This document shows positions 3,518-61,216 of a stretch of 63,592 bases of DNA, one piece after another. How positions within the stretch are numbered: position 1 is the stretch's first letter; every line of letters begins with the position of its first letter. The translations under genes and the position numbers were made by a program. A model generated the notes under the pieces. That model searched no databases, was not told where the DNA came from, and saw only the letters and a program-made list of their open reading frames with translations. The stretch is from assembly GCA_002104895.1 (NCBI GenBank), contig MCFG01000389.1, forward strand, positions 1 through 63,592. The letters are read 5' to 3'. The DNA is from Anaeromyces robustus (taxonomy: Eukaryota; Neocallimastigomycota; Neocallimastigomycetes; Neocallimastigales; Neocallimastigaceae).

Positions 3518-3905
3518 TGTCAAGAACTGAAGTGTTCGACAACAATAAAAAAATATACTTTCTTCTTAATGTAAAATAAAAATTTATTATCGAACACAAA
3601 ACTACTTTACAAGTTAGTGTTAAATAATTATTTTTATTTATTAATAATAACTCGAATTTTTATAAAATTTTTTGAGAAAAATTCACTCGTATTTATACTA
3701 AAAATTTTAAAATATTTTTAAAAATTTTTTTAGTGACCAAAATTTAACCAATCAGAATAATTTTGTTTGGTAAAATTTATGGTAAAAATAAAAATAATAA
3801 AAATATGATATTTTGGAATTGAGAGGTTTCGAACTCGAGAGGTTCGAACCATAGTCTTAGTTACTAACCACTAAGACAGGTTACTCATTTTCATGATTCG
3901 TTACA
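3518..3905 (-). repeat. Element B 3' LTR
   Basis: This 388-bp repeat is nearly identical to 9805-10192. On the minus strand it begins TGTAACGAATCATG and ends GTTCTTGACA. Differences from the 5' copy include T/C near 3661, two T/A changes near 3713-3716 and G/A near 3820. It contains the tRNA-like module (3825-3880), a TATA box and the R site GAGTTATTAT (3644-3653) that can pair with the primer site. Confidence 0.95.
3825..3880 (-). promoter_or_regulatory. tRNA-like A-box/B-box module in the B 3' LTR
   Basis: On the minus strand the LTR reads TCTTAGTGGTTAG, a good A-box, followed by GGTTCGAACC 26 nt downstream and a second B-box-like GAGTTCGAAACC 40 nt downstream. The second has the spacing of a real tRNA gene. 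The flanks do not form a complete cloverleaf. I infer a Pol III-type (TFIIIC) binding module rather than a tRNA gene. Confidence 0.65.
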
Positions 3906-4226
3906 TGGTCCTCCTCCAGGATTCGGATACCAGACGAATCTCGAGTTAAACTAAAATTTATAAAATGTAAACTATTCTAAGAGTGAAATTTTCTTTTAAT
4001 TATTACATTTTAAAAAAAATTACATGGATTATTATTTTTTAATTACATTAATAAAATTGACTATATAAGATATAAAATAAAAATTTATTTATTATATTTA
4101 TTAATTTTTTTTTTTTTTTGATATTAATAAAATATATTGATAAAAATAAAATATAAATTTAATATTAATAAAATATCGATAAGAATAAAATATATTGATA
4201 AAAATAAAATAAGTATTATTTTGCTA
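3906..4226 (-). other. Polypurine tract, conserved hairpin and 3' untranslated region of B
   Basis: Immediately before the 3' LTR the minus strand reads CCTGGAGGAGGACCA, a purine-rich plus-strand primer candidate. Just upstream GATTCG and CGAATC can pair around a nine-base loop. The same block precedes the 3' LTRs of C (15255) and D (45889). The rest up to the chromodomain stop is AT-rich, with short repeats of the type ATTGATAAAAATAAAATA, and shows no gene. Confidence 0.7.
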
Positions 4227-4400
4227 TTATTTTTTGTTAAATTTTTTGTTAAAATTTCTTAAAATTTCATCACAGTTTAAATTTTCTTTTGGTTCCCAAG
4301 ATGCTTCAGAAAGAGGATAACCTTTCCACTTAATTAAATATTGTATCTTGCCATAATATTTTCTTCTGTCTAAAATTTCTTCTACCTCATATTCCTTTTT
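4227..4400 (-). CDS. Element B chromodomain, one base out of frame with gag-pol
   Basis: The frame reads EYEVEEILDRRKYYGKIQ, then YLIKWKGYPLSEASWEP and a basic tail. It has the aromatic cage pattern (Y in EYEVE, W in IKWKG, W in ASWEP) of chromoviral integrase chromodomains, which bind methylated histone H3 and steer integration. The main gag-pol frame stops at 4387 just before it. An A-run (GATGAAAAAGGAATAT) carries one base more than the in-frame relative D would need. This is either one disabling insertion, which would make an otherwise intact element lose its targeting domain, or a +1 programmed shift. A mutation is simpler. Confidence 0.8.
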   Translation of the reverse strand, partial: KKEYEVEEILDRRKYYGKIQYLIKWKGYPLSEASWEPKENLNCDEILRNFNKKFNKK

Positions 4401-7400
4401 CATCATTAACAATAATAGGAGGTGGAGCTGGTTTGATTCGGTCGAAACTGTCTTCATAATATGGTTCCAAGCTTGAAACATGTACGATTGGGTGAATTCT
4501 AATGGATTTAGGTAGATCCAATTTGTAAGAAACTTCGGTTACCTTTTCTAAGATTTTGTATGGGCCTAGTTTCCTTGGTTTAAACTTTTTATTTCCCTTA
4601 TGTATTATTAAAGAACTATCAAGCCAAACTTTATCACCCTTTTTGAACTTGGGTGGCTTACTTCTGTACTTGTCGGCTTGTTTCTTCTGAATTTCAATAG
4701 CAGTTTTCAAATTTTCTTTTAACTTCTTCATTAAGTCTTGAAAGTCTTTAGTGAATTCAACAGCGCGTGGTACATTAGTTTGTTCAGGGATTAAAGGTGA
4801 GTGTTTCGGGTGAAAACCATAGTTTAGAAAGAAAGGGGAAAAACCAGTAGACTCTTGAACAGCATTGTTATAGCTAAATTCTGCTAGACTTAAGTATTGT
4901 TTCCAATCAGAACCTTTATAATTGGAAAAACATCTTAAGTATTGTTCTACAACGGAGTTCACTCTCTCCGTCTGGCCATTGGACTGATGGTGGTAAGGAG
5001 ACGAAAATTTAAGTTCGATGTTCAGGGACTGGCAAACGGCTTTCCAAAATTTAGATGTGAACTGAGCACCTCTGTCGGAGATAATTTCATTAGGCAAACC
5101 GTGGAGTTTAAAGATGTAATCAATAAAAGCAGAGGCAGTTTCGACAGCAGAAGGTAAGCTATGGAAAGGTACAAGATGGAACATCTTGGTTAGTCTATCA
5201 ACAATAACTAAAATACAGGAGAAACCATCAGAGTCAGGGAGATCAGTAATAAAATCCATGGAAATGGAAGACCAAGGACGTTCACTAATATTAAGAGGGT
5301 TAAGAAAGCCATAAGGTTTGTGACGGGGAGATTTTGAGCGACAGCAAATATCGCAAGACCTAATATAATTTTTACAATCAGAGGAAAGAGATGGCCACCA
5401 AAAGTCGCGGACGATGAGAGAGGTAGTCTTTCTAATGCCATAATGGCCTGCAGTGGGTGAATCATGGCAGATTTTCAAGATATGATTGCGACAGTTTGGA
5501 GGAACATAAATAGGGTTATCAAATAGAAGAAAACCATTACTTAAAGAAAATTTGTCAATTTGGTGATGAGGAATTGGAGGCTTTTTATTTTCGAGGTAGG
5601 TACAAACATCATGGTAAAAGGAATCAGATTTGTAGCCTGAAAGAATATCATCATTAAGAGAAGAAGCTGAGCAAATAAGGGCACAGAAATTTTCTGGATG
5701 TAGAACAGTGAAAGGAATATCTGAAGAATCGGTAGAGTTAGCATAATCAGGGCGGCGTGAGAGAGCATCGGGTTTACCATTGGAAGAACCAGAACGATAT
5801 AAAATTTTAAAATTAAACTCAGAGAGAAACAAGGACCAACGAACGAGTCTTTGAGTCATCTTTTCGGGTTTTTTCTGGAAAAGAAGATTTCGATGATCAG
5901 AATAAATAGAGAAAGGAATGTCAGAGCCTTTGAGGAGATGACGCCAGTTTTCCAAAGCAGAGACGATAGCCAAAAGTTCCTTATCATAAATGGGGTAGTT
6001 TCGTTCTGGACCAGTAAGAGATCTTGAGAAGAAAGCGACAGGGTGGATAGCATTATCACTGGGTGATTTCTGAGATAATACTGCACCGATAGCAAAATTA
6101 CTAGAATCGGTTTCGACAATAAAAGGAAGTTCTCGGTTAGGATAAGAAAGTACAGGAGAAGAAGTAAATTTCAATTTTAAGGAATCAAATGCAGACTGAG
6201 CTTCAGGAGACCAAGAAAATTTTGTATTTTTTCTAAGGAGAAGGTGAAGCGGATGAGCTAATTTGGCAAAGCCTGGAATGAAGCGTCTATAGTAGTTAGC
6301 GAGACCGAGAAACGATTGAACTTCTTTGACACAAGTGGGGGTAGGCCAATTTAAAATAGAATCAACCTTTTTTGGATCCATGAAAATACCTTCGGCTGAT
6401 ATGCGGTGACCAAGGAAATCGATATATGGAACGAAAAATTCGCACTTTTCTAGTTTGGCGAATAGTCCAGCTTTTCTGAGGCGAATAAGAATTTCCTTAA
6501 CATGTTTAACATGAGAATTATAATCTTTAGAGAAGATTATAATGTCGTCGATGTAGGCATAGGCGAACTTTCCAATAACATCTTCGAGTACATCGTTAAT
6601 AAAATGTTGAAAAACGGCAGGAGCGTTTTTCAATCCAAAAGGCATGACGGTGTATTCAAAATGTCCAAAGGAACAGGTAAAGGCAGTCTTATATTCATCT
6701 CCCTCTTTTATGCGAATCAAGTTGTACGCTGAGCGGAGATCCAGTTTTGAGAAGATTTTAGCTTTACCCAAATGCTCCAGCATATCTTGAATTAATGGGA
6801 GAGGGTAAGAATCTCTAATAGTAATTTCATTTAGTGGACGATAATCAACCACTAATCTAAGTTCACCATTCTTTTTCAAGACAAAAAATATAGAAGCTCC
6901 AGCTGGGGATTTAGATTTACGAATAAACCCTTTCTTGAGATTTTCTTTTATATATTTTTCAAGAGCTTTTGTTTCTTTATTAGTTAATGGATAAATGGGT
7001 CCATAATGAAGTTTACCATTAACTATGAGATTTATCTGGCAATCATACGGACGATGAGGAGGGAGCTTGTTGGCGGAAGCTTCACTAAAAACATCTAGAA
7101 ATTCAATTAATTCAGCAGGGAGTTTGAGCTTTAAATCATGATCTGAAATAAAATTAGAAATAGAGTTTGTAATGGAATTAGAGTCAGATTTCAAAGTAGA
7201 ACTGGAAGTAGAAATAGAGTTAGAATTAGAACTAATAAGGGAATAAGACGTAGGACGAGAATTAGGAACAGAGGTAGCATTAGAACTAGAATTAAAAGTA
7301 GAAGTGGAATTAGAATAGGCAGAATTTTGATTTAGAACTGAATTGTAATTTGGATTAGTTGAAGGACCAAGAGAGACAGAAAACGAATTAACAACTAGGG

Positions 7401-8808
7401 AGTTATCAGAAACAGAATCCTTTTTTGATTTTCCTTTGGATTCATCGGTAATGACAAGAAAAGAAGTGTAGTTAGGAGAGTTATCAGAGTTTGAATTATT
7501 TACGGAATGGTTCCTACTGAAATTGTTATTACGAGAATTATTATGAATATTGTTATAACGAGACTTTTTTCGACGAGAATTATTTTCAATGGCAGGGAAA
7601 GCAGAAGACTCTTCAGGAAATTCAGGAACGTTAGTAGGTAACGTAACACAATAGGTAAGGCAATGATTAGAAACAAAGGATAAAGTGTTTGAAGAGAAAT
7701 CGATGTGTGGGTTGTGTTCCCTGAGCCAATCGAGACCTAGTATACAAGGATAAACAGGTAAATCAGTAACATAGAATTGGGTTCGACAAAGGTGGTCCTT
7801 ATAACGGAGATTAAGAGGCGGAGTTATACCAAAAATAGATTGACTACCACCTATACCAATAATTTTAGGTAAATTACCGTCGTCATGATAAGGTAGATTA
7901 TGGTCGTTACAGTAGTCAACATCGATAAGATTAAGCTTAGAACCAGAATCAATGAGAATCTTGGGTGAAAGTTCAAAAGAGAGTTTAAATTCCTTCGTGA
8001 ATCGTTCTGAAGATGACTCATTAGAATTTGACGCCATAGTTGGGATTGACATCATAGACATACTTTCTTTATTTTTATTTTTCTTATTGCAATCCTTTAA
8101 CTTATGGTTGGGTGAGCCGCAGTATAGGCAGAGATTTTCCTTTCTTCTTCTTTCTTTTTCTTCTTTGCTTAAGGGTCCAAATTTTTTCTGGCTAGTTTGA
8201 TTTTGATTTGGAGGCCTATTTGAATTATTTTGTTTTCTACTATAGGAACCATTACTAAAATTCCTATTGCTGTAGAACATATTTCTGGACGATAATCTGG
8301 AGTCAATCCTGGACGCCACAATTTGGAGGGAAGTGAGGTTCCGGGGCCCTGGGAACATTTCAATTATTTTCATTGCAACTTGGTTGTGGAGTCCTGCAAT
8401 GAAAGCGTCCATCTTGGCCTCTTCGTTCCAGTTCGACTCGTCCGAATATTTGTTGAATTCTTGTATATACCCACGAATACCCCCGAGTTTTTGTTGTTTA
8501 ATTGTGCGCAACATCTGGTTTGCTACATATGTTGCGTCACAATTTCCATAATATGCCTTAAGTTTAGCAACAAAGGCCTGATAGTCATGCAAACAGGGGT
8601 CATCATTCTCTATCAGGGAGGCGGCCCAATTCATCGCGTTCCCATATAGCCTAGAGATGAGATAAATAATTTTTGTTTCGTGGTCGTGGTAGCGATCCGG
8701 ATACAGTAAGAAGACCAGTTCAACCTTGGCTAGGAATCCCTTTAAGAATCGACGGTCCCCGGCAAATCCGTCCTTTAGAGTAGCATTATTTAGTATCTCT
8801 TCTTCCAT
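4387..8808 (-). CDS. Element B Gag-Pol polyprotein (1473 aa)
   Basis: This single uninterrupted frame starts MEEEILNNATLKDG. Domains in order: Gag 1-210; zinc knuckle C227-x2-C230-x4-H235-x4-C240; protease with D287-S-G; a Ser/Asn-rich linker 400-560; reverse transcriptase about 575-800 with YIDD at 752-755; RNase H about 890-1015 with D901, E944, D971 and D1014; integrase zinc region H1115, H1122, C1152, C1155; catalytic D1185, D1245 and E1281, the last two separated by exactly 35 residues; and a C-terminal GPY-type module (RKLGPYKIL). Having gag and pol in one frame is as in Tf1/sushi-type chromoviruses. All catalytic residues I can check are present. The stop falls before the chromodomain. 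The start is the first ATG after a poly-T (minus-strand poly-A) tract, and its N-terminus matches the gag starts of C and H. Confidence 0.95.
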   Translation of the reverse strand: MEEEILNNATLKDGFAGDRRFLKGFLAKVELVFLLYPDRYHDHETKIIYLISRLYGNAMNWAASLIENDDPCLHDYQAFVAKLKAYYGNCDATYVANQMLRTIKQQKLGGIRGYIQEFNKYSDESNWNEEAKMDAFIAGLHNQVAMKIIEMFPGPRNLTSLQIVASRIDSRLSSRNMFYSNRNFSNGSYSRKQNNSNRPPNQNQTSQKKFGPLSKEEKERRRKENLCLYCGSPNHKLKDCNKKNKNKESMSMMSIPTMASNSNESSSERFTKEFKLSFELSPKILIDSGSKLNLIDVDYCNDHNLPYHDDGNLPKIIGIGGSQSIFGITPPLNLRYKDHLCRTQFYVTDLPVYPCILGLDWLREHNPHIDFSSNTLSFVSNHCLTYCVTLPTNVPEFPEESSAFPAIENNSRRKKSRYNNIHNNSRNNNFSRNHSVNNSNSDNSPNYTSFLVITDESKGKSKKDSVSDNSLVVNSFSVSLGPSTNPNYNSVLNQNSAYSNSTSTFNSSSNATSVPNSRPTSYSLISSNSNSISTSSSTLKSDSNSITNSISNFISDHDLKLKLPAELIEFLDVFSEASANKLPPHRPYDCQINLIVNGKLHYGPIYPLTNKETKALEKYIKENLKKGFIRKSKSPAGASIFFVLKKNGELRLVVDYRPLNEITIRDSYPLPLIQDMLEHLGKAKIFSKLDLRSAYNLIRIKEGDEYKTAFTCSFGHFEYTVMPFGLKNAPAVFQHFINDVLEDVIGKFAYAYIDDIIIFSKDYNSHVKHVKEILIRLRKAGLFAKLEKCEFFVPYIDFLGHRISAEGIFMDPKKVDSILNWPTPTCVKEVQSFLGLANYYRRFIPGFAKLAHPLHLLLRKNTKFSWSPEAQSAFDSLKLKFTSSPVLSYPNRELPFIVETDSSNFAIGAVLSQKSPSDNAIHPVAFFSRSLTGPERNYPIYDKELLAIVSALENWRHLLKGSDIPFSIYSDHRNLLFQKKPEKMTQRLVRWSLFLSEFNFKILYRSGSSNGKPDALSRRPDYANSTDSSDIPFTVLHPENFCALICSASSLNDDILSGYKSDSFYHDVCTYLENKKPPIPHHQIDKFSLSNGFLLFDNPIYVPPNCRNHILKICHDSPTAGHYGIRKTTSLIVRDFWWPSLSSDCKNYIRSCDICCRSKSPRHKPYGFLNPLNISERPWSSISMDFITDLPDSDGFSCILVIVDRLTKMFHLVPFHSLPSAVETASAFIDYIFKLHGLPNEIISDRGAQFTSKFWKAVCQSLNIELKFSSPYHHQSNGQTERVNSVVEQYLRCFSNYKGSDWKQYLSLAEFSYNNAVQESTGFSPFFLNYGFHPKHSPLIPEQTNVPRAVEFTKDFQDLMKKLKENLKTAIEIQKKQADKYRSKPPKFKKGDKVWLDSSLIIHKGNKKFKPRKLGPYKILEKVTEVSYKLDLPKSIRIHPIVHVSSLEPYYEDSFDRIKPAPPPIIVNDEKGI

Positions 8809-9639
8809 GACTTAGAAAAAAAATTTTTTTTTTTTTTGTAAAAATAGAGAACAAAAATTTGAGTTTTTTCCAAGAATAGCGACTGATAAATTTGAATTTT
8901 TTCAAGAATAGTGAGTTTTTTCAAGAATAGTGAGTTTTTTCAAAAATAGTGGTTGATAAGAAATTAAAATAAAGTTAAATAAAATAGATTAAAATAAAAT
9001 CAAACTATATATAAAAATCGGAACAATTAAAAAAAATATTTTTTTCAAATATAATTATATAATTTAATAAAAAAATTTTAAGACAAATATTATAAGCCTG
9101 ATTATATAGTGTTGGGTCATCAAATATATAATCAGTTATATTATAAACCGCGTTATAATAAAATTACAACGGGCCCTATACTAGCTCTCAAGGTTCTGTT
9201 TAGCCGAGAGTTAATATTAATTAAAAAAATTAATAAAAGAAGGTAACGGTGAAAAAATTTTATAACAACTAACTTATTGTTAGCTAAAAAATAGTTTCAG
9301 GTTATCCTTCCCAAGTATCAGCTTCGACAGAATTGGATTGAGTATTATGGTATCAAAACCCAACTTCTGTACACGCTAGCAAGGGAGGCGAATTTATAAT
9401 ATTATTTATAATATTTATATAATAAAACTTATTATTAAATAAATATTTTATAGTTGAAAAAAATTTTTTAAAAAAATAAATATGGTTTTTTAGAAAAATA
9501 TTTTATTTTTTTTTTTTTTTTTTTTTTTTTTTGAAGGAGAAAAAAATAAAAATTTGTTTTATTAGAAAAAGAAAGAGAAAAAATTAAAATCTGATAATAA
9601 ATTTTATAATTATTTATATATTATTAATATTTATTCAAG

Positions 9640-9725: not shown

Positions 9726-9794
9726 TGTATATATATTAAAAAATATAAAAATAAATGTAATTTAACACTAAGGTATAAAGTTATATTTTATTAG

Positions 9795-9804: not shown

Positions 9805-10192
9805 TGTCAAGAACTGAAGTGTTCGACAACAATAAAAAAATATACTTTCTTCTTAATGTAAAATAAAAATTTATTATCGAACACAAAACTACTTTACAAG
9901 TTAGTGTTAAATAATTATTTTTATTTATTAATAATAACTCGAATTTTCATAAAATTTTTTGAGAAAAATTCACTCGTATTTATACTAAAAATTTTAAAAA
10001 AATTTTAAAAATTTTTTTAGTGACCAAAATTTAACCAATCAGAATAATTTTGTTTGGTAAAATTTATGGTAAAAATAAAAATAATAAAAATATGATATTT
10101 TGGAATTAAGAGGTTTCGAACTCGAGAGGTTCGAACCATAGTCTTAGTTACTAACCACTAAGACAGGTTACTCATTTTCATGATTCGTTACA
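9805..10192 (-). repeat. Element B 5' LTR with TATA box and tRNA-like module
   Basis: This 388-bp copy of the LTR is followed by the target duplication TGGAT. On the minus strand the order is the tRNA-like module (10167-10112; TCTTAGTGGTTAG, then GGTTCGAACC and GAGTTCGAAACC), the TATA box TATAAATA (9984-9977), the R site GAGTTATTAT (9940-9931) and the terminal CTTGACA. The TATA box is a plausible Pol II start for the genomic RNA. The Pol III-like boxes lie upstream, inside U3. Confidence 0.9.
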
Positions 10193-10197
10193 TGGAT

Positions 10198-12088: not shown

Positions 12089-13369
12089 TGTAACGAATCT
12101 CTCAATGAAACAATGTTGAAATTATCTTAATTCTATTAAATAGAAAGTGATAACTTCATTGTTCAAATATATGATTGTCTAAATCATATTTAGTTATAAA
12201 TTTAAAAGAAATTTATTAAGTTTAATATTTTAGTTTTAAAATTACTTTTATTAAAATTATAAATTTATTTAATACATCTCGTTTATGTATTAAAAATATT
12301 AAAATCTAGTTATTAAAAACATTATAAAATTTGTTATTATAATCTTTAATTATTATTAATCTAGTAGTTATTTTAAATAATATTATTATTCTAATTATTA
12401 TTATTATTCTAATTTTTATGGATAATTAGTAACAATTTTTAAAAATATTAATTTTACATTTTCTTTTTATATTATTTTCTTATTTTTAAGTTTGTTTATA
12501 AATAAAATATTAATTTATTAAAATTAAGAACATTAAATAGTTAAAATAAATAATTTGTTTATATTAAATATTATTTAAATAATTAAATATTTTATAATTT
12601 ATATTTAAATAATTTTATAATATTTTTGAAATTCAGCAAATATTAATTATATTTTTATAAATTTCATTCTTTATCATCAATTAGTAAAACAGTAACCATG
12701 GTCTAGTGGTTAGTAACTATGACCATCTGGGCGAACATTCTGGGTTCGACTCACACCTTGTTCCAAATTTTATAAAAATTTTATTTTAAATTTATTTATT
12801 ATAAATTTCTGTATTTTATTCTGTATTTGTTTCTGTATTTTATTTCTGTATTTCTTTATAGAATTACATGGAATAAAATTAGAAACTTTAAGAAAAAATT
12901 ATATAATATTTCTTTATTTTTCTATGAGATTCATTTTATATCAAAATATCTTAGTTTCTAGCAATTTTTATTATTTTTTATGAACCTTTATTTTTAAAAC
13001 TATTTTTCCGCAAAAAGTATAAATAGGTGTAAAATCTTTAGTTAAAATATTTTTCTTTGTGCTTTTATTCTTTTAATAACTTTCATATATATTAGTGATA
13101 ATTAATTCATAAGTAGTTTGAAATACTACAAAGATTAGTTATTATTAATTTTTAATAATTAATAAAACTATATTCTAATAAAACAAATTTCAAATAAAAA
13201 AATAAATTAAAATTATACTAATATATATCGACGCCGACCTTCCGGGTTAACAAAGGAAAGGTGTTCCGATATTACAAAGTATAATTAACTTTCTTTTATT
13301 TTATTTTCTTTTCGTGTACGTTTTAAATATTGGTGTCAATTGTAATATTGGAACTACCGTTCCGTTACA
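12089..13369 (+). repeat. Solo LTR G (long form) with tRNA-like module
   Basis: This 1281-bp unit begins TGTAACGAATC and ends CCGTTACA, flanked by the 5-bp duplication TCACT (12084-12088, 13370-13374). Its second half aligns with the LTRs of C and D (A/B boxes, runs of TTTCTGTATTTTA, TATA box GTATAAATAGG near 13020). Its first ~570 bp form an extension that C and D lack but that recurs inverted at 51765-52303. Near the end GTTCCGATATTACAA and TTGTAATATTGGAAC form a 15-bp inverted repeat with one mismatch (about 13266-13353). Confidence 0.85.
12695..12757 (+). promoter_or_regulatory. tRNA-like A-box/B-box module in LTR G
   Basis: ATGGTCTAGTGGTTAG is a textbook A-box context like that of eukaryotic Glu/Asp tRNAs. 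GGGTTCGACTC is the B-box, 41 nt further. No full acceptor or T-stem pairing is apparent, so I do not call a tRNA gene. Confidence 0.65.
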
Positions 13370-14690: not shown

Positions 14691-15254
14691 TGTAATGAAT
14701 TGTTAAAAATAATTTAATTATTTTACATAATTACTTTTATTTGACCCAATAGGTCAACACAGAAAGTAAATCAGAATGAATAGAATTTGTTTTATAAAAA
14801 AAATGTTTTATTAAATTTATTAAATTTTAAAATTTATTCATTTATTAATTAATCTTGTAATGTTCTGAATTACTTATAATTAATTAATAAAATCGCGAAT
14901 TAATCATTTAAAAATTTTACATCTATTTATACTTTTTACGGAAAAATAGTTTTCTTTGTAAAAGGTTATTTAAAATTTCTAGAAACTTTTGATTAAAAAT
15001 CTTATAGAAAAAATTAGAAAAAGTTAATATAAAAGTTGTCTAAAATTTTTGATTGTATTCTATTAATTTCTACATAAAATACAGAAATAAAAATACAGTA
15101 ATAAAATACAGAAATTTATAATAAAAATTTTAAATAAAAATTTATTTTAAAAGTGGAAAGAGTATGAGTCGAACCTAAGGTGTTCGGCCTGATGGTCATA
15201 ATGACTAACCACTAGACCATTGTTATATTATTACTAATTCTGAGTTTCGTTACA
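14691..15254 (-). repeat. Element C 3' LTR with tRNA-like module (15165-15222)
   Basis: On the minus strand it begins TGTAACGAAACTCAG. The A-box region ATGGTCTAGTGGTTAG and the B-box GGTTCGACTC lie 41 nt apart (15222-15165), followed by repeats of CTGTATTTTATTT, the TATA box GTATAAATAG near 14940, and an end that I place at CATTACA (14691). It aligns with LTR D and with the second half of G. The left end is less certain than the right because no second LTR is available. Confidence 0.75.
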
Positions 15255-20787: not shown

Positions 20788-21363
20788 TGTAACGGTATCA
20801 ACAACGACATCAAGGAACTTCGTGGTTCAACGGTAACTACTTCTACCTTTATCATAGATATCACTGGTTCGAATCCTACTTTTACCTTTTTGATTTGGAA
20901 AATTATTCATTTATTTAGTTATTAATACATTTGTTCATTTACTTATTTTATTAATAGAATTATTTAGTCTATAATTATTCATTCACTTAGTTAGATTTAT
21001 TTAGATATTAGTTATTCGTTCACTTAGATATAAATACGATTTTATTTAGATACTAATTATGTATTCACTTAATTATAGTAATAAATAACAAAATATTTAA
21101 TTATTTTGTTATTTAAATAAGTAAACCAATCACGTAATGATTTAGAATAAGTCTTGAATATAAAAGAAATGTATTAATATTATTTTTACTCTTTGAGTCA
21201 TTATTAATAAGAAAAATATTAAATATTTAAATATTAAATAAAATACAAAATAAATCCATAAACATTATGTTTTAATATTGTGTTATTTATTTTGTTTGTT
21301 TATTTTATTTTAATTATTGAAATACTACAACAACCTAGTGAATTTCTCACTAAGTTCGTTACA
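20788..21363 (+). repeat. Solo LTR E with tRNA-like module (20823-20876)
   Basis: This 576-bp unit begins TGTAACGG and ends TTCGTTACA, flanked by TATAT (20783-20787 and 21364-21368). TGGTTCAACGG (A-box) and GGTTCGAATCC (a perfect B-box consensus) are 43 nt apart. A TATA-like GATATAAATACG lies near 21030. Diverged fragments of the same family occur at 44690-44960, at 53090-53400 (inverted) and around 32885-33010. Low-complexity flanks make the target duplication weaker evidence than for B or G. Confidence 0.7.
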
Positions 21364-45362: not shown

Positions 45363-45888
45363 TGTAACGTTTGGGTTAACACAATAGGTTTATAAACACA
45401 AATAAGTAATTTAAAATAAATATGTTTTAATAGAAAAAGGTTTTATTAATTTTATAAAAGTATAAATATTAATTATTAATCAGTTATTGTAATATTTCAA
45501 ATTACTTATTAACTAATTAATAAAAGCACGAATTTTAAAAATATTTTATTAATGACTTTTACACCTATTTATATTTTTTTTGAAAACAATAAAAATTTCT
45601 AAAAAGTTCTCGAAACTTAAATTTTTTGATAAAAAAAAGAATCTTATGGAAAAGGATAAATTATAATAAATTTTTATCCTAAAGTTTCTGTATTTTATTC
45701 TATGATAAAATACAGAAATAAAATACAGAAATAAAATACAGAAATTAATAATAAGTTTTTCTTAAAATAAAAATTTTTTATAAAATTGAGATTGAGTGTG
45801 AGTCGAATCCAAAGAGTTCAGCTCAATGGTCATAGTATTTAACCACTAGACCATGGTTACTAATTTACTGATTATGAGTTTCGTTACA
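45363..45888 (-). repeat. Element D 3' LTR with tRNA-like module (45797-45856)
   Basis: On the minus strand it starts TGTAACGAAACTCATAATC and ends AACGTTACA. ATGGTCTAGTGGTTA (A-box) and GGATTCGACTC (B-box) are 40 nt apart. CTGTATTTTATTT repeats and the TATA box ATATAAATAGG near 45575 follow. It aligns over its length with LTR C. Confidence 0.85.
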
Positions 45889-46244
45889 TGGTCCTCCTCT
45901 AGAATACGGATACCAGACGAATCTCAACATCAGGCTAAAATAAGAAAATTTCATTTATAAAATTTTAATACTATTTTTTAGGTGTAAAATATAATATAAA
46001 AATATACATGTGTATTAATAAAATTACATTGATATTAATAAAGAATTACATTTAGATATTGATATTGATAAGTTTATTTAATATTAATAATAATAAGTAT
46101 TATATAAGATAAAATTATTATAAATTGATATTGATATATAATAAGTTTGATATTAATAAAATTAAAATATAATAATATTAAAGATTCTTTTTCAATTTAA
46201 GTTTCTAATTTGCTTTGTTAAATTTCTTAAGTAGTTCAAGGCAA
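45889..46244 (-). other. Polypurine tract and 3' untranslated region of D
   Basis: TCTAGAGGAGGACCA abuts the LTR on the minus strand, with GAGATTCGTCTGGTATCCG upstream conserved as in B and C, though the hairpin arm is weakened (CGTATT instead of CGAATC). The rest is AT-rich and non-coding. Confidence 0.65.
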
Positions 46245-47480
46245 TTATGACTCTGGTTCCCAAGAAGCTTCAGATAAAGGGTAGCCTTTCCATTTTATAA
46301 GGTATTGAATTTTGCCGTAGTGTTTTCTTTTATCGAAAATTTCTTTAACTTCATATTCTTCTTCTTCATTTACGATTATAGGTGGTGGTGGTTTTTGTTT
46401 TCTTCCGAATTTATCTTCATAATATGGTTCTAGTTCTGAAACATGAATTACAGGATGAATTCTAATGTTTTTTGGGAGTTCTAATTCATTTGAAACAGGT
46501 GAAACTTTTCTAATAATTTTGTATGGACCTAATTTCTTTGGTTTTAATTTCTTATTCTTATTTCTAATTATGAGCGAACTATTGATCCAAACTTTGTCAT
46601 TTATTTTAAATTCTGGGGCCTTCATTCTGTGCTTATTTGCAAATGTTTCTTGTTTCTTGCTTGCTAACTTCAAGTTTTCTTTAAGTTGTAAAAATAATTC
46701 GGATAAATTTTTTAATTCTTCTGCGCGAGGAACGTCAATATTATTTGGTACAGCTGGGGAGAAATGGGGATTATAGCCATAAATTGCGTAGAAAGGTGAT
46801 TTTTTCAAAGATTTTTGAACCGAATTATTATAACAGAATTCTGCAAGAAATAGGTATTCGTTCCAATTTGATCCTTTAAAGTTTGAGTAGCATCTAAGAA
46901 ATTGTTCAATAACGGAGTTCACCCTCTCCGTTAAACCGTTGGTTTGATGGTGAAAAGGTGAAGATAGTTTCATAGAAATACTGAGAGATTTGCAAAAAGC
47001 GGTCCAGAGTTTGGAAGTGAATTGAGTACCTCTATCAGAAAAGATTTCATTTGGATGTCCATGGAGTTTAAAAACATACTTTATAAAAGCTTGAGCAGTA
47101 TCCTCGGAAGAAGGAACGTTAGGAAATGGAATAAAATGGCCCATTAAATCTATCCAGAACCACGAAAATACAAGTGAAACCATTTGAAGGAGGAAGGTCA
47201 GTGATAAAATCCATTGAAATAGAAGTTCAAGGGCGATCAGGAATTTGAAGTGGATTAAGGAATCCATAAGGTTTGTGTCGTTGAGTCTTTGAGCGACAGC
47301 AAGTTTCACACGAACGAATGTAACTTATTATATCGGAGCTTATAGTAGGCCACCAAAAATCACGATTGATCAAAGAGAAAGTTTTCTTGAAGTCAAAATG
47401 CCCAGCAGAAGGAAAGTCGTGGCAAATGTTTAGAACTGAAGAGCGACAACTAGGCGGAACTTAAATTTTTCCTTTAAAGA
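46200..47480 (-). pseudogene. Element D integrase and chromodomain
   Basis: The zinc-region cysteines and ISMDFITDLPPSNGF (first Asp) are in different frames around 47200. FSDRGTQFTSKLW (second Asp), HHQTNGLTERVNSV (Glu) and KKLGPYKIIRK are in one frame. Here the chromodomain is in frame with the integrase: NEEEEYEVKEIFDKRKHYG, then LIKWKGYPLSEASWEPES, ending at a stop at 46245. That makes D the reference for judging the frame shifts of B and C at this junction. At least two breaks lie upstream (47150-47330). Confidence 0.85.
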
Positions 47481-48990
47481 GTAGAAAATTATTGATAAGA
47501 CAGAAGTCTTTTGGTTTGGTACGATCATCCCTTGAATTAAGTTTGTTGCAAGTATCTTTGTAGAATTTATCATCATTATATTCACTAAGTATTTGATCAT
47601 TCAAGGATACAAAAGAAATCATAGTAGAAAAATTTTCAGGATGTAGTACTATAAATGGAATATCATTGTCTAATTCCTCTTTGTTAGCAACATAATTGGG
47701 TCTTCTTGAAAGAGCGTCAGCTTTACCATTAGCAGACCCAGCATGATAAGTTATTTTAAAGTTGAATTCCGAAAGAAACAAAGCCCAGAGAACAAGTCTT
47801 TATGACATTTTCTCTGGTTTCTTTTGATACAAAAGGTGACGGTGATCAGAAAAAATTGTAAATGGTTTTGAAATTCCTTTTAAGAGATGTCTCCAATGTT
47901 CCAAAGCTTCGATAATGGCTAATAGTTCCTTGTTGTAAATAGGATAGTTTTTCTCAGTAGCAGTAAGAGATCTAGAGAAAAAGGCTACGGGATGAATTTT
48001 ATTATCCTTAGATGAGGTTTGAGAGAGAATGGCACCAATAGCAAAGTTACTACTATCAATTTCAACTAGGAAAGGTAGATCACGATTTGGGTAAGCCAAA
48101 ACAGAAGCAGAAGAGAATTTTGATTTGAGTTTGTCAAAGGCATCTTATGCTTCAGTTGACCAAAGGAATTTTGTATTTTTCTTTAATAGTTAATGTAAGG
48201 GATGCGTAATAGCAACAAAACCAGGGATAAATCTTCTATAGTAGTTCGCTAAACCCAAAAATGATTGAAGTTGTTTAACATTTAAAGGAACAGGCCACTC
48301 TAAAATGGAAGAAACTTTTTTAGGATCCATAAAAATACCATCGCAAGAGATTCTATGGCCAAGGAAGTCCAAGTAGGGAACACAAAATTCACATTTTTCC
48401 AGTTTCGCGAATAACCCTGCCTTTCTAAGTCTACGAAGAACTTCTGAGAGATGTTCATAATGAGATTCTATATCTGGGGAGAAAACAATAATATCGTCGA
48501 TGTAACAAAAGGCAAATACTCCAAGAATATCTTCTAAAACATCATTGATAAAGTGTTGGAAGACAGCTGGAGCGTTCTTTAGGCCAAATGGCATTACAAG
48601 ATATTCAAAGTGTTCATATTTACAGGTGAAAGCGGTTTTATACTCGTCACCCTTTTTGATCCTTACTAAGTTATAAGCTGAACGGAGATCAAGCTTTGAA
48701 AATACTTTCCCATTTACTAAGTGTTTGAGCATATCATTGATTAATGGTAATGGGTAAGAATCACGGATGGTTATGTCATTTAAGTGTCTATAATCTACAA
48801 CCATTCGAAGTTCACCATTTTTCTTTAATACAAAGAAAACAGGAGCACCACCAGGAGATTTAGATTATCTAATAAAACCCTTTGCAAGGTTTTCTACAAT
48901 ATATTCCTTAAGTGTTTTAGATTCCTTTTCCGTCAACGGATAAATTGGTCCCTAGAATAATTGAGTGTTTGGTAATAAATTGATTTCACA
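47481..48990 (-). pseudogene. Element D reverse transcriptase-RNase H
   Basis: [47 protein letters not shown] and the catalytic [13 protein letters not shown] (48500) form an almost clean palm. The thumb ends at ITHPLH before a stop at 48193. Stops also occur at about 48150 (EA-stop-DAFDKL) and 47802 (MS-stop-RLVLWA). RNase H retains EIDSSNFAIGA, YNKELLAI, FSDHRHL and ADALSRRPN. The metal-binding residues are kept, but the chain is interrupted. Confidence 0.85.
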
Positions 48991-48999
48991 GTCGTAAGG

Positions 49000-49985
49000 T
49001 CGGTGAGGTGGAAGTTCGTTCACATATATCTCATTAAATACATCTTTAAATGGAATGAGTTTTTTGGGTAAAGATCTATTAATTTTATTTTTTAATTCAT
49101 CATTTATCTTTGTTTATTTGTTATTAGATTTATTACATTTTCTATCATTAATTTTTTTATTTCTATTATCATTTATTTCTTTAAATTCTTTCATTGAATT
49201 TAGTTTCTTTTTGTGGAATGTAAGAGGTAAAAGTACTTGGTATTACAAGACAATTTGATACACAATAATTTGATTTAAAGGAGAGTTCTTTCGTAGCAAA
49301 ATTAATTGAGGGGTTATGGGTTGAGAGCCAATCTACACCAAGAATAGCACAATAGGAAGGAAGATCGATTACATAAAATTTTACTTTGGATATGTGATTG
49401 TTGTATTGAACAGATATTGGAAGAATTTCACCGATAACCGATTGATTACCTCCGATGCCAGAGACTTTTGGAAAAGTGATTTCAGTAGAAAAGGGAATAT
49501 TATTTTCTTTAACAAAATATTTATCCATTAAACTAAGTTGTGAGAGGGAATCCAGAAGAATTTTTGCTTTTGTTCTGATATTAGAGACTTTAAGGTTGAA
49601 TTCGAATATTGGAAGCTTTATATTTTGTTGCTCAGAGATTCTTGGTCTGGGTTTAAATTCAAAGTTTGAAATGTGACCACTAGTTGTAGATTTTTTATAT
49701 TAGTTCTTTAAAGAACAATTTTCAAGCGAATGCTCGGCGGAACCACAATAAGCACAAAAGTTTTCCCTTCTTCTTTCCTTTTCTTCGTTTGATAAAGGTC
49801 CACGGAATTTGGGATTTGAAGGTTTTTTTGTAAAATTTGGTTTTTTTAATTTATTATTTTTACTTCTATATTGTTTGTGTGCAGAAAGTCAGCTATCTAT
49901 TCTTGAAGATATGGTTTGCATTGTGATTAGAATAGGAGGGCCAGGAAACATTTCGAGTATCCGGGTTGCTACTTGATAGTTTAGG
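49000..49985 (-). pseudogene. Element D protease and C-terminal Gag
   Basis: LPPHRPYDCEINLLPN near 49000 opens the polymerase. The protease shows ISGIGGNQSVIGE and YCAILGVDWLSTHNP, but its active site reads LLDSLSQLSLMDK (DSL instead of DSG), so it is probably inactive. Upstream the zinc knuckle CAYCGSAEHSLENC is intact (about 49745), and ILEMFPGPPILI with SSRIDS is the end of the capsid. Gag residues corresponding to about the first 140 of B are missing at 49985, where non-coding leader-like sequence begins. Confidence 0.75.
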
Positions 49986-50779
49986 GTTATAATAATGTAC
50001 AAAAAAAAAAAAATTATGTAGTAAACTATATATATTAATACACTATATATATATAGACTTCAAGGGACGAAGTCTAAGTTAAGCGGGTTTTGATCCTCAT
50101 AGATATATAGCTTTAAAGTAGATTATAATAATTATATAACTCTGTAAATAAATATAAATTTTCAATATTAATAATGTAAAAATTGTATAATACACATATA
50201 ATTAATTATTATAATCAATCTACCAATAGTATTTAAGGAAATTAATATAGAATAAGACTATAAAATAATAAATTTTAATAATTAAAATGAGATAGAGAGA
50301 GAGAAATAATTAAGAAAACTTAGAGAAATAAATATTAAAATAGTTTATCAAATAGTGAATAATAAAATTATATATATAAATTAGTAAGGTAATTAAGCTA
50401 AATATTAGGAATATATTAAGAAAGAATATTTGACTTAGAGAATTACCTTAATAATAATAATAATAATTTAGTATAAAATTCATTGTATTAGTGTAAACAG
50501 TGTAAAAGATAATTATTATTAGTTTAGAAAGACTAATATTTAAATAAAATTAAATAAACATTACGACATTTAAACTATAAATTAACTTTAGTTATTTATT
50601 ATAAAATAATAAAGTGTTTAAGTATATTTTCATAAATCTTATACTAGAATATATTATTTTATATTTACCAACTTGTAGTTTCCCTAAATAAATAAAAATT
50701 GATACTATTTGAAAAAGTTGTATCAATGTGATAAATAATTGAATTAATAAATAATAATTAATTATAATGATTGATTTTT
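49986..50779 (-). other. Leader-like region of D
   Basis: Near the break is a poly-A tract (49999-50011) and a perfect hairpin AGACTTC-AAGGGAC-GAAGTCT (50055-50075), followed by AAGCGGGTTTTGATCCTCAT. Similar homopolymer-plus-structure arrangements precede gag in B, C and H. No coding frame. Confidence 0.45.
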
Positions 50780-51745
50780 GGGTTAAATCAAAAATAACCT
50801 AAAACTTGTTAAAGAGCAATTAAATAATTTACCAAAAATTTACGATTAACTTTAGTTTTTCTAGAAAGATATAATAAAATTTAATTTATCAAAATTAAAT
50901 TAATAAATATTATTAAATAAAATTCATTACTTCGAGAAATTACTTTTATTATTAATAAAAATAATGAATTACACTTTAAAAGTAAACAGAACACAAAATG
51001 AATATTTTAGACAATATTTTTAATACTTTTATTAAAATAAAATAAATATTATTATTAATAATTATTATAAAATTATAAATTAAAATACTTTAATAATATA
51101 ACATGACTTTAAAATATTTCTTAATTATTCTTTATAATATAATAATAATTCTAAATTAAAAATAATAATTAATTTTATTAAAAATTAATAAACAAACTTG
51201 TTTATTTTATTATTTTAAATACTTCTTTTATTAATACTTTAATTATTTTCTATATTCTAAATAATTCTTTTATTAATATTTTTATTATTTTATTCTATTT
51301 GTTTATTTTATTAATTATTTTATTGTAAATAATTATTCTTTTATTTCTTTTATTGTAAATAGTTTAATTTTCAAGAAAAATATAAATATCTGTAAAATAT
51401 TTCATGTAAATTTTCTCTTTGCTAGTTATAACATAGAATTAGTCAAAATAAATAATTTTAACATAGTTTAGTTTTAAAATAGTTTAGTTTAATAAATTTT
51501 AAATAATAAAATTATAATAAAATTCAAGATTTATAAAATAATCATTAGAATAGTTATATTCTTAATTTTAATTAATTAACTTTTAAAATTTATTTTATAA
51601 ATAAAATTAATAAAACATTTTAATAATAAAACAATTTTTATTGTGTTTTTTTTTTTCATAAAACAAATTTTGTGTAAAACGAATAATTCATACAATTATT
51701 CCCAAAGAACATAAATATTATCACTTTTCTTACTTATAAGAAATT
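50780..51745 (-). repeat. Dispersed repeat K, copy 2
   Basis: It is the reverse complement of 22880-24060 with moderate divergence, carrying only one 76-bp unit. It adjoins the LTR-G-type extension, and together they form the right 1.5 kb of element D. Confidence 0.6.
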
Positions 51746-51764
51746 AAGATAATATTATAATATG

Positions 51765-52303
51765 TTTCATGTGATAATAAATAATGAAATTTATAAAAAT
51801 ATAATTAATATCAGCTGAATTTCAAAAATATTATAAAATTATTTAAAATAAAAATTAAAATATTTAATTATTTAAAATAGTATTTAATATAAACAATTAT
51901 GTATTTTAACTATTTAACATTCTTAATTTTAATAAATTAATATTTTATTTATAAACAAACTTTAAAATAAGAAAATAATATAAAAAGAAAATGTAAAAAT
52001 AATATTTTTAAAAACTGTTACTAATTATCCATAAAAATTAGAATAATAATATTAATTAAAATAATAACTAGAATAATAATAATTAAAGATTATAATAATA
52101 AATTTTATAATGTTTTTAATAACTAGATTTTAATATTTTTAATACATAAACGAGATGTATTAATTAACTTATAATTTTAATAAAACTAATTTTAAACTCT
52201 GAAATATGGTTTATACAATCATATCTTTTGAACAATGAAGTTATCACATTCTATTTTATAGAATTAAGATAATTTCAACATTGTTTCAATGAGTTTCGTT
52301 ACA
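51765..52303 (-). repeat. LTR-G-type extension forming the right end of D
   Basis: On the minus strand it starts TGTAACGAAACTCATTG and continues AAACAATGTTGAAATTATC, matching 12089-12650 closely, up to TTTATAAATTTCATT. Where LTR G goes on to the A-box, this copy switches to repeat K, so it has no tRNA-like module. Confidence 0.75.
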
Positions 52304-57425: not shown

Positions 57426-59477
57426 TTTGCATCCTTTAAGGCATCAAAAATTTCCATAATTTTTGGTAGAGCATATGCATCTTTAACTGTTACATTATTT
57501 AGTTTCCTAAAATCGATGCATAGCCTCCATTTTCCATTTTTCTTTTGAACTAATACTACCGGGGATGCCCATGGAGAATGTGACGGCTCAATCAAATTTT
57601 TGTCAATTAATTTTTTTAATTCTTCTTTTAAAGCCGTAGTGTAAAAGAGTGACAAGAAATAGATTACAATAACACAACACTAAAATAAGAAAATAAAAAT
57701 AACGAAATAAAAAAATTTGTTTTGTTATAAAAAATGTTTTATTAATATTTAAATAATTAAAATTTTATTTTAATTTTAATAACAATTACACCTTTCAAAA
57801 TTTAAGAAATTTTGAAGTATTTTTATATTTTTTCATAATTATATTTATTATATATTATACTAATTTATTTATATTTAATTTCCATTTATTTACGGACTAT
57901 CTAACTAACTAAACTTTATTATTTAATAAATTTATTTATTATTTCTAAAAATAGAAATTTTAAATTAACTATTAAAACTAAGACTAAATAATTTCAATTG
58001 AGTTCATTTATTATTTATTTATTATTCTAATATTAATAATATATTTATTATATATTTTAAATTTAAAAACAATGAAAAATTTTTTAAATTAAAAGTGAAA
58101 AAATTAATATTTCACAAAATAAATTAATAATTTATTTTGTTTTGAACTTTATTTAATTGATTTAAATTATTGTTTCACAATAATTTTACAGAAATATTTT
58201 TTGTAATTCAGTTACTTGTAAAGTGGCTGAATTTACAATTAAAGATATTATAATGTGGCGCATAATATCTTTACACATAGATTGAACTTGTGATATTTTA
58301 TATGGCTTTTGCTTAATCGGTTTTACATTTTCCTCTAAAATAATATGATGAGGAAGTAATTTTGATGGCTCTAGATCATCAGAAGACACTGCAATAATAT
58401 CTTCAAATTGATTAAGCAAAGTTTGAATTTTTCTTTTTCTTTTATATTTAATTTACAATTTCCAGTAAGATTATTAATAATATCCTCTTTAGAAATAGAT
58501 GTACAAATAATTTTCAACATTATCATTTTTATCATAATTATCTAATTCACTTATAGGAGTAAATAAAGTACTAGTTGTAATAAAAGGTTCTTCAAACATA
58601 TAGCATAATAATGATTGTGAATGAAAGGTTGATACATCTTCCATAGCAGCAATGGGAATTAATTTACCATCATCATCTTTTGTTGCTATAGCACGATTCA
58701 TTGTGTCAATTATAATATTATTATCATATTGCGTTTTTAAATTTATAATGGCATCATAAAATGGATCATCTTTTTCAGAGATTCTAAAATTTGTGTAAAA
58801 TTCTTTGTTGCCTATTTTTACATTTAACCTTACAATATCAAAAGATCTTATAACATCATCAACCATTGTTTGTCTCACTTTTTCTTGAATTTTTCCAACT
58901 ATTTCATAATTTTTGATGAATTTTTCTATTTTTATTATTATTATTATATGTTTGTTTTTGTGAAGTCTTCGTCTCTCCCAAAATTCTAGCGGCCTTTTCA
59001 GCAATTTTGCAAGCCCTCTCCAAATCTTCAGCCTCAGCAAATGCAACTTTTTTCATATATTTCTTTTCTACTTTTGATTGCATTTTCATAATCTAAAACC
59101 GAAATCTTTTCTTTTTCATCAGTAGGAAGGTCATCAAAAAGTTCTAAAAATATATCGTTGAAGTCCTCAATAGATTCATTATAAGCGATGAGAGACTTGA
59201 GTCTTCTAAATTTATCCTCTTGATTATTCTTTCAGCGATATTTTATTTTTAATGCTGCTTTGCTTTCGTCCAAGGTAAGGTCTCTTTGCTTTTTAGCCAT
59301 TGTATCACTAATAGCTTTTGTGGCCTCATTTCTTGTTCCGACTAATATATATCTGAATTGCTTATCTTCTGGAATTTTTATTATCTAAAGCCAATTCTTC
59401 ATAAGAGTAGACCAAACTTTAACATCTTGGTTACCATCGCCAATAATTGGAAGAGGAATGTCTATTTCAGTCATTTT
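57426..59477 (-). pseudogene. Gypsy element I: Gag, protease and RT start, split by LTR M2
   Basis: Gag starts MTEIDIPLPIIGDG at 59477 and continues VWSTLMKNWL-stop, then ILVGTRNEATKAISDTMAKK, LDESKAALKIKYR-stop, FRRLKSLIAYNESIEDFND. VRLNVKIGNKEFYTNFRIS and IINLKTQYDNN are the distal half of a protease whose active-site part is missing. LEPSKLLPHHIILEENVKPI and YKISQVQS lead into the polymerase. Removing LTR M2 (57640-58275) joins QS to ALKEELKKLIDKNLIEP in frame, followed by KWRLCIDFRKLNNVTVKD and FDALKDA, where the copy ends at 57426 against an inverted A-type fragment. Two stops and small shifts mark it as inactive. Confidence 0.8.
57640..58275 (-). repeat. Solo LTR M, copy 2
   Basis: This 636-bp unit starts TG and ends CA, with imperfect duplications CGTAG/CATAG at its borders. 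It lies inside the reverse transcriptase of element I, whose frame rejoins without it. Its sense strand (minus) begins TGTAAAGATATTATGCGCC with two hairpins, AAAGATATTAT/ATAATATCTTT and TTCAGCCACTTTACAAGTAACTGAA. I see no A/B boxes or other tRNA-like part. Confidence 0.75.
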
Positions 59478-59802: not shown

Positions 59803-60441
59803 TGTAAAGATATTATACGCCACATTATAATATCTTTAATTGTAAATTCAGCCACTTTACAAGTAACTGAATTACAAAAAATATTTCTGTAAAATTATTG
59901 TGAAACAATAATTTAAATCAATTAAATAAAGTTCAAAACAAAATAAATTATTAATTTATTTTGTGAAATATTAATTTTTTCACTTCTAATTTATAAAATT
60001 TTTCATTGTTTTTAAATTTAAAATATATAATAAATATATTATTAATATTAGAATAATAAATAAATAATAAATGAACTCAATTGAAATTATTTAGTCTTAG
60101 TTTTAATAGTTAATTTAAAATTTCCATTTTTAGAAATAATAAATAAATTTATTAAATAATTAAGTTTAGTTAGTTAGATAGTCCGTAAATAAATAGAAAT
60201 TAAATATAAATAAATTAGTATAATATATAATAAATATAATTATGAAAAAATATAAAAATACTTCAAAATTTCTTAAATTTTGAAAGGTGTAATTGTTATT
60301 ATTTTATATTTTTTTTAATTCTCAAAAAATTAATAAAACATATATTTTAACAAAACAAATTTTTTTATTAGCGTATTTTTTAATTTTCTTGTTAGTGTTT
60401 CCTAATTGTTGTTGTAATCTATTTTTCAACAATCTTTTACA
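59803..60441 (+). repeat. Solo LTR M, copy 1
   Basis: This 639-bp unit starts TGTAAAGATATT and ends CTTTTACA, with exact 5-bp duplications ATGAG (59798-59802 and 60442-60446). It is inverted relative to M2. The terminal hairpin AAAGATATTATA/TATAATATCTTT (59806-59839) and the hairpin AATTCAG/CTGAATT (about 59845-59871) are present. No coding. Confidence 0.85.
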
Positions 60442-60744
60442 ATGAGTAATTTTTATGTTGTAGTCGAAATATGGTATCTTTTGTATTTTAATATATTATT
60501 TATTATTTTATTTATTTTTTTTTTAATATATTTTTAAAAGTCCACTTTTACAATTATTTAATATTGTTATTATTAATAATATTTTTAATATTTAATATTA
60601 TATATTAATAGTACATATAAAATATATTATATTATATATTGAAATATAATTTAATATATAGTATAAATATAATAATAATATATATACAAATAATAATTAA
60701 TATAAATATTTTAATAATATTAATTATAATATATATAAATAATT
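60442..60744. other. AT-rich sequence without recognisable genes
   Basis: A/T sequence with many short TATATA palindromes. I see nothing else before LTR H. Confidence 0.5.
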
Positions 60745-61216
60745 GTAACGAATACTAGAAATTATAGAGTTGGCTTACTCGTTAAGCTCTAGAACTCTGC
60801 TCAGTATTCCTGGGTTCAATACACAGGAATGCCTTTTGTTAAAATTTATATTTTTATTTTTTACTATTTTATTATTTTATTTTTTTATTATTATTTTATT
60901 ATATATTAATATATTATAAAGTGTATTAAATGATAATATTATTTTATTATAAAAAGGTTAATAGACCAATTAGATTTAGAATATAATAACTCATGAAAAA
61001 TGTAATTAAAATATTTTGAAATAATGTTTATAAATATTCAAGAATTTTCTCATTTGAAAATTCGAGTTTTTATTAACAAAGAAATAATAAAATAAATAAA
61101 ATTATTTGATACTAACCTGTTGTTTGTTTGTGTCCAATAATTCTTGTTTATTTTCTAATATTGAGGTGTTTTTAAGTTTATTAAGAATTATTATTGTTGG
61201 ACTTCTGTTCTTTACA
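60745..61216 (+). repeat. Element H 5' LTR with tRNA-like module (60771-60831)
   Basis: This 472-bp unit runs from TGTAACGAATAC to GTTCTTTACA. TTGGCTTACTCGTTAAG (A-box) and TGGGTTCAATAC (B-box) are about 39 nt apart. Around the B-box TTCCTG/CAGGAA pair as a stem, the most arm-like structure among the LTRs here. The TATA box TATAAATA (61029-61036) is followed 35 nt later by GAGTTTTTAT (61064-61073). Confidence 0.8.

Follow-up and report, generated by a model that had tools for sequence, protein, structure and literature searches.

The long terminal repeats (LTRs) of several Ty3/Gypsy retrotransposon families in the gut fungus Anaeromyces robustus carry an A box and a B box at the spacing of tRNA genes (tDNAs), and these boxes are a genuine feature of the LTRs. 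Elements that insert next to tRNA genes also occur at these modules, at the same distance as at the genes; we call one of them X, and the other was seen at a single pair of sites. We studied the LTRs in a window of 63,592 nt (the whole stretch that was analysed, contig MCFG01000389.1; G+C 21.6%), which is contig 322 of the 70.17-Mb, 769-contig genome that we surveyed. In this genome 150 matches to the CBM_10 domain, the fungal dockerin of anaerobic gut fungi, were scored from 683 candidates, and 14 control genomes had none. A sequence-only reading of this window had proposed that tRNA-derived RNA polymerase III (Pol III) modules lie in Ty3/Gypsy LTRs, and such modules are real. We consider it probable that self-priming, chromovirus-type Gypsy LTRs carry a working type-2 Pol III promoter and, separate from it, an RNA polymerase II (Pol II) promoter. 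The module-bearing LTRs of the window, with the X copy that interrupts one of them, are laid out as follows (TSD, target-site duplication; self-primer, an LTR segment able to pair with the sequence that follows the 5' LTR):

3518..3905, minus: B 3' LTR, preceded in sense by GGAGGAGGACCA
9805..10192, minus: B 5' LTR (TGTAACG...TTGACA)
10151..10161, minus: B A box, TTAGTGGTTAG
10128..10137, minus: B first B box, GGTTCGAACC
10113-10121, minus: B second B box, GTTCGAAAC
9931..9940, minus: B self-primer GAGTTATTAT, 44 nt past TATAAATA (9984-9977); its complement is 9804-9794, after the 5' LTR
12089..13369, plus: G solo LTR, interrupted by X, TSD TCACT; A box 12699-12713, B box 12743-12752, TATA 13018-13025, self-primer 13059-13068
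12106..12676, plus: X solo LTR (TG...CA), TSD TCAA, after nt 17 of the G LTR and ending 22 nt before the G A box
14691..15254, minus: C 3' LTR, left end provisional; A box 15205-15219, B box 15166-15175
20788..21363, plus: E solo LTR, TSD TATAT (low complexity); A box 20823-20833, B box 20866-20876, TATA 21159-21166, self-primer 21195-21204
45363..45888, minus: D 3' LTR; A box 45839-45853, B box 45800-45809, TATA 45566-45573, self-primer 45520-45529
60744..61216, plus: H 5' LTR; A-like box 60770-60781, B box 60813-60822, TATA 61029-61036, self-primer 61064-61073, complementary stretch 61217-61227

Both boxes were found near the 5' edge of all seven LTRs for which they had been claimed, with the qualification that H has its B box but an imperfect A box, one position off consensus. 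The module reads on the minus strand in B, C, and D and on the plus strand in E, G, and H. The coding strand of B is the minus strand, along which the LTR therefore reads TGTAACG...TTGACA, with the module at the U3 5' end in sense. Spacing agrees with the proposed tRNA-gene arrangement: the TGG of the A box lies 42-44 nt from the B box in C, D, E, G, and H, and B does have an extra B box, one standing at ~26 nt and another at ~41 nt from TCTTAGTGG. The LTRs are not the six independent cases that they had been taken for, since C, D, and G are mutually alignable and B has the same type of A box. This type, shared by C, D, G, B, and a further family, J, is tRNA-Glu-like, while that of E is tRNA-Gly-like (by eye) and H stands apart. 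The G span holds the boxes as described but is not a single LTR: it is a solo LTR split by the 571-nt X, so that the G LTR proper measures ~706 nt. The start given for the H LTR, 60745, is corrected to 60744.

Chance was rejected as the source of the boxes, both by shuffling and by pattern counts across the genome. When each of 10 LTR types was compared with 300 of its own dinucleotide shuffles, the score of the box pair was equalled by 0-6 of the 300; for the X LTR, which has no module and served as a control, it was equalled by 259 of 300. H and I are the weaker cases in this test, and there the scorer picks as its best A site one other than the A box that we assign; the sense and antisense strands of B score equally (14). 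Genome-wide, the exact A-plus-B pattern TCTAGTGGTTAG-N20-45-GGTTCGANTC has 221 matches against 0 in the control, and a pattern joining the LTR start to the B box, TGTAACG-N45-75-GGTTCRANNC, has 412 against 1 for the reversed control. Three families absent from the sequence-only reading, C', J, and I, were seen among the matches listed for this latter search, and a B relative (B') and a J variant were recovered later.

Conservation follows the boxes in part. Across eight related C/D/G-group LTRs, including two from D, the boxes are the best-kept portion, with a mean pairwise identity of 0.92 over both boxes against 0.72 between them, 0.85 at the LTR start, 0.80 in the next 50 nt, and 0.62-0.87 over the 50-nt windows that cover nt 150-499; identity is lower past nt 499, where several rows overrun the end of their LTR. 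Pairwise comparisons usually place the boxes above the rest of the LTR, as in E versus I (82% at each box, 57% elsewhere) and E versus D (A box 64%, B box 73%, rest 46%). Three pairs depart from this rule. Between B and D the A box stands at 82% but the B box, at 50%, falls below the rest (61%); between C' and J the boxes (A 80%, B 90%) exceed the rest (66%), but the LTR start, at 91%, exceeds the A box; and between B and B' (A box 100%, B box 90%, rest 71%) the entire first 100 nt is kept and not the boxes alone. This last pair, together with the single A-box type of C, D, G, J, and B, which one ancestry could explain, would suit a functionless fossil, a tRNA or short interspersed nuclear element caught once in an ancestral LTR. 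We regard such a fossil as highly improbable, because two A-box types (Glu-like and Gly-like, by eye) as well as H occupy the same LTR position, because the boxes of the C/D/G group are kept while the stretch between them decays, and because the modules are used as insertion targets.

This use as targets suggests that the machinery of tRNA synthesis does assemble at the modules. A genome-wide pattern requiring the X 3' end and, 45-75 nt on, a B box gave 16 matches and 0 in the control; by inspection these are five tRNA genes (Asn, Trp twice, Cys, and Gly, with Cys, Gly, and one Trp confirmed by ARAGORN) and 11 LTR modules (G 6, I 3, E 1, C' 1). From the X end to the first T of the A box the distance is 20, 20, 21, 22, and 22 nt at the tRNA genes and 21-24 nt at the 11 modules, and the B box follows the X end by 63-68 nt, though the pattern permitted 45-75. 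Measured to the start of the tRNA, X lies 13-15 nt away in the five genes and 16 nt away at one more (L130). Ty3, Tj1, Tyl6, and DGLT-A, too, insert upstream of tRNA genes at a short and constant distance, listed for DGLT-A as 13-33 bp in a table of PMC5911963; X differs from these elements in that it also sits in the LTRs of other retrotransposons.

The same association appears when X ends are taken regardless of what flanks them. A similarity search with the X LTR, in which 40 of 1175 candidates were scored, found 67 matches; 32 downstream flanks were taken, 22 of them from X copies whose match reaches the X 3' end (query position at least 570), and seven more intact ends (five upstream pair members and two fragments) were left out of the count. 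Together with the two copies of the window, one at G and one in a broken D LTR without a module after it, this makes 24 ends, 11 of which adjoin a Pol III-type target (four tRNA genes and seven LTR modules). Among the 22 genomic flanks, four continue into a tRNA gene (Cys, Gly-GCC, Trp, and Gly-TCC by ARAGORN) and six into an LTR module (G 3, C' 1, E 1, I 1), in every case within the first 20 nt of the LTR; compared with 10 LTR types, none of the 22 matches any other part of an LTR. Searched from the other side, an LTR start followed by the X start occurs seven times genome-wide (G 4, I 1, C' 1, D 1) and 0 times in the control.

Some sites look as if X-like elements had used them repeatedly. 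The motif TATCA, with which X-like LTRs end, lies 13-15 nt before the tRNA in 7 of 32 distinct tRNA 5' flanks, many of which are tRNA-Arg copies, and elsewhere in one, at 31 nt; the X copies at a tRNA-Gly gene, a tRNA-Trp gene, and the C' module follow, after 4-5 nt, a sequence that ends in TATCA (by eye). The genome also contains many near-identical tRNA-Arg (TCT) genes on few contigs (L009-L033), some of them directly downstream of tRNA-Glu genes. In another group of copies (L119, L122, L124, L131, L135), X is followed after 4-5 nt by other sequence that starts with TG, in some with a long hairpin at its start; by eye, these five are possibly stacked tDNA-targeted insertions. One X copy (C364:3601-4399; L142, L110) is flanked to the left by a G LTR start and to the right by an E module, lacks a TSD, and may have arisen by recombination between X copies in two LTR families, which would be a possible route for swapping LTR starts.

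A second element shows the same behaviour. One G-type LTR, recovered through its downstream part, has lost its start, and the preceding 663 nt share 99.8% identity with the 5' flank of a tRNA-Glu gene; the similarity breaks off 24 nt short of the A box in the tRNA-Glu gene and 23 nt short of that in the G-type module. Thus, among the roles that the sequence-only reading had suggested for the modules, the attraction of tDNA-targeted elements has direct genomic support, from X and from this second element.

What the inserting elements recognise bears on what the modules do. The targets share the A and B boxes, and X and the second element might recognise DNA sequence that is common to tRNA genes and modules, without involvement of the Pol III machinery. 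We think this improbable: the target-site duplications differ (TCAA, GTAT, AAGA, GAAT, AAAA; by eye), only the distance to the boxes is constant, and Ty3 is described as using TFIIIB (PMC5911963, PMC8632968). According to the sections of these sources on targeting, Ty3 in yeast requires TFIIIB, which is positioned by TFIIIC, and yeast extra TFIIIC (ETC) sites that lack TFIIIB are not targeted (PMC5911963). If X works like Ty3, the LTR modules therefore load both TFIIIC and TFIIIB, and because X and the second element insert at tRNA-gene distance, the modules most likely load Pol III factors in vivo. We infer this loading from the insertion sites, and transcription would be a further step. The same reasoning bears on whether the modules could be ETC-like sites that bind TFIIIC alone, as a boundary or tether, without TFIIIB or Pol III. 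Such sites would account for boxes that are kept though no tRNA is found, and for folding and T-run evidence that is weak or mixed (see below); in view of the indifference of Ty3 to TFIIIB-free TFIIIC sites (PMC5911963) and the targeting of the modules, if X is Ty3-like, we hold them to be quite unlikely.

Several observations weigh against a working Pol III promoter that attracts X. Most X ends, 13 of the 24, have no recognised Pol III target; by eye, five of these 13 adjoin other sequence that begins with TG, as stacked insertions would, but no Pol III gene was found within ~0.87 kb beyond four of the five. Insertions of X were not found at B, H, or J modules, and at D only a left flank was recovered. 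The survey of X is a sample, since only 40 of the 1175 candidates were scored, and the second element is known from one pair of sites only. No X integrase was recognised in the 3 kb before one 3' LTR (C364), which has no frame longer than 83 aa; C364 was rejected as a coding X copy for this reason. Two further points concern the RNA. Folding of the modules is not uniform across LTR types, and the spacing of T-runs is not diagnostic, with P values of 0.035-0.215 per LTR and of 0.0075 for the module-free X LTR. In this control the first T-run comes later still than in the module LTRs, and the idea that a conserved T-run position marks transcription units was dropped because the control shows it too.

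The cloverleaf had been described as lost, and this holds insofar as neither ARAGORN nor Rfam (at gathering scores) finds a tRNA in the window, which also disposes of plain tRNA genes inside the LTRs; yet several modules fold better than their shuffles. The z scores are -3.0 to -3.6 for C', D, J, B, and H, -2.4 for C, -1.2 to -1.7 for G, K, and J', and about 0 for E and I. With so mixed a signal, one common RNA product is unsupported. The selected product could nevertheless be a structured Pol III RNA of ~70-90 nt that serves in packaging, regulation, or small-RNA production, a less likely explanation that we take seriously: the B, C', D, J, and H modules show the strong folding just given, and the A-box hairpins of B, J, C', and G differ in sequence (by eye). 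It fits poorly with E and I, whose z scores are about 0, yet which have the same boxes at the same position and are both X targets.

Downstream of the module, the LTRs offer what appears to be a second promoter. A TATA box, reported earlier for those LTRs in which one had been located, follows the module in 9 of the 10 LTR types scanned and is absent from I; the E LTR has a second TATA further upstream. In B, D, E, G, and H, the 10 nt after the 5' LTR are complementary to an LTR segment 35-44 nt past the TATA box, as scored by script for B and H and by eye for D, E, and G, whose post-LTR stretches were read in the genome copies L061, L046, and L065. The five families provide four different pairs, since D and G share one. 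Such complementarity would be expected of elements that self-prime from the RNA 5' end, and because TATA box and self-primer follow the module in five families, a separate Pol II promoter is likely, as is a Pol II start well downstream of the module. This arrangement also bears on an idea put forward for Helenus and Cassandra, that the RNA used for transposition is itself a Pol III product. E would be a candidate, its LTR pairs being 1.09 kb apart with no 60-aa frame inside. We would nonetheless be very surprised to see this borne out, given that T-runs occur from nt 91-105 on, that TATA box and self-primer lie further downstream, and that the same module is present in elements whose LTRs are 4.4-7 kb apart.

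We favour a Pol III promoter with a Pol II promoter beside it. A type-2 (tRNA-gene-like) promoter would begin ~27-36 nt inside the LTR 5' edge, in U3 and in sense, with TFIIIC on the A and B boxes and TFIIIB presumably placed just upstream, across the LTR edge. The module would probably give rise to a short transcript that stops at a T-run located at or beyond about LTR nt 91-105, as the T-runs weakly suggest, while genomic RNA would come from the separate Pol II promoter, with its TATA box and then the self-primer at the likely RNA start. The most likely benefit may be that a complex of Pol III factors keeps the LTR open, or bounded, beside the Pol II promoter in repeat-rich chromatin. One cost would be that Ty3-like elements gain a place to land in the LTR.

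The module is shared by coding and non-coding families, since B, C, and D have pol domains whereas long frames are absent from the E and H copies that were read. A profile search of translated pieces found pol domains in all three of the former: RVT_1, RNase H, rve, and SH3_Tf2-1 in B, with no chromodomain in the pieces searched; integrase in minus-strand coding pieces of C; and, in D, the PF00385 chromodomain with an rve match below its cut-off. The closest relative of B, P0001, carries PF00385, and an integrase relative at 44% identity stands in a record labelled Orpsp1. The features of a chromovirus (reverse transcriptase [RT], RNase H, and integrase with chromodomain) are thus present, but split over copies. 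Pol coding is not universal among the module-bearing families: between the paired LTRs of one G element, 3.76 kb contain just one frame of at least 120 aa, which is 618 aa long and by eye resembles gag and protease; one H, with 3.6 kb between two LTRs, has no frame of at least 120 aa; and E elements measure about 1.66 kb, the one that was read having no frame of 60 aa inside. The elements resemble Tf1-like chromoviruses in being Gypsy, in the Tf2-like SH3 integrase tail, in the chromodomain (here in D), and in a stretch that matches their own LTR. Tf1 is self-priming, and we know of no tRNA-like LTR module in Tf1-like self-priming chromoviruses.

Outside their LTRs, the B and D elements of the window are arranged as follows:

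3518-10192, minus (coding): B element, TSD TGGAT
4387..8811, minus: B gag-pol open frame, with Ty3 capsid, RT, RNase H, integrase, and Tf2-like SH3
45363..52303, minus: D element, TSD TAAGA; only 15 nt of the 5' LTR found, 52289-52303
46248-47324, minus: D integrase piece with chromodomain
48190-48864, minus: D RT-like frame, assigned by eye
51772..52288, minus: X-like LTR, inserted 15 nt into the D 5' LTR

The module of the D 5' LTR was looked for downstream of this X-like LTR and not found. The D flanks (45087-45362 and 52304-52425) match 57695-58100, a nearby paralogous copy without the element, and this empty site supports the D ends. A GC-rich TGGTCCTCC beside the B, C, and D LTRs was considered as a primer-binding site (PBS) and rejected, since coding strand and LTR order put it on the polypurine-tract side. 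Elsewhere in the window, a different Gypsy-type element on the minus strand (1500-3659 and 10278-10769) is apparently split by the B insertion with its TSD TGGAT; a Copia-type RT (RVT_2) lies on the minus strand at 35086-36132; and a long array of 12-bp repeats follows the H 5' LTR (61377-62100), with one frame partly an Asn-Phe repeat.

Our findings fit into a wider group of LTRs with Pol III promoters, and the claim that none of tRNA type had been described needs narrowing. Kojima (2024; PMC10886601) published tRNA-derived LTRs for Helenus, which are short, non-autonomous terminal-repeat retrotransposons in miniature (TRIMs); the analysis, as its text defines it, was limited to elements below 1000 bp. 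The claim stands for coding Gypsy elements, for which the literature searched, largely without subscription papers, held no earlier report, and no paper on gut-fungus LTRs with such modules appeared among those listed. The exact module patterns gave 0 matches in viral contigs and 0 in contigs of bacterial and archaeal genomes. As that paper's sections on Helenus/TRIMp3 describe them, these elements have in common with the present LTRs the tRNA-derived A and B boxes, a mostly lost tRNA function, occurrence in fungi, a 5-bp TSD in fungal members, and several families per genome; they differ in being non-autonomous and 311-1263 bp long and, in fungi, in their ties to Copia (PMC10886601). The Helenus PBS is of tRNA type; in five families here, the sequence that follows the 5' LTR matches the element's own LTR. 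Helenus is delimited as non-autonomous, non-coding, and shorter than ~1.3 kb, whereas B has gag-pol, C and D have integrase, G has its 618-aa frame, and E, though without 60-aa frames, reaches ~1.66 kb. In contrast to Helenus, coding Gypsy families here bear the module, and with it come a self-priming sequence and what is likely a Pol II promoter. Kojima argues that autonomous partners must use Pol II and that a long common LTR stretch is unlikely (PMC10886601, in the part that deals with them). Cassandra, a plant TRIM, similarly has the Pol III promoter of a small-RNA gene inside its LTR, but one of 5S type, which PMC10853983 describes, where it treats this element, as having replaced the Pol II promoter.

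On balance, we lean towards seeing these LTRs as mobile mimics of tRNA genes with two promoters, hundreds of which would be self-spreading Pol III sites and landing pads for Ty3-like elements, interchangeable with tRNA genes. If so, one retrotransposon exploits a promoter that is borne by another, and LTRs with a Pol III promoter are not confined to tiny elements without coding capacity but also occur in coding Gypsy families, which probably have a Pol II promoter as well. The tDNA-targeted insertions would then be a natural read-out that the Pol III machinery sees the modules, and why an LTR should carry a tRNA promoter becomes testable in a single genome with hundreds of copies. It also suggests that tDNA-targeted elements may gain landing sites as other elements spread.

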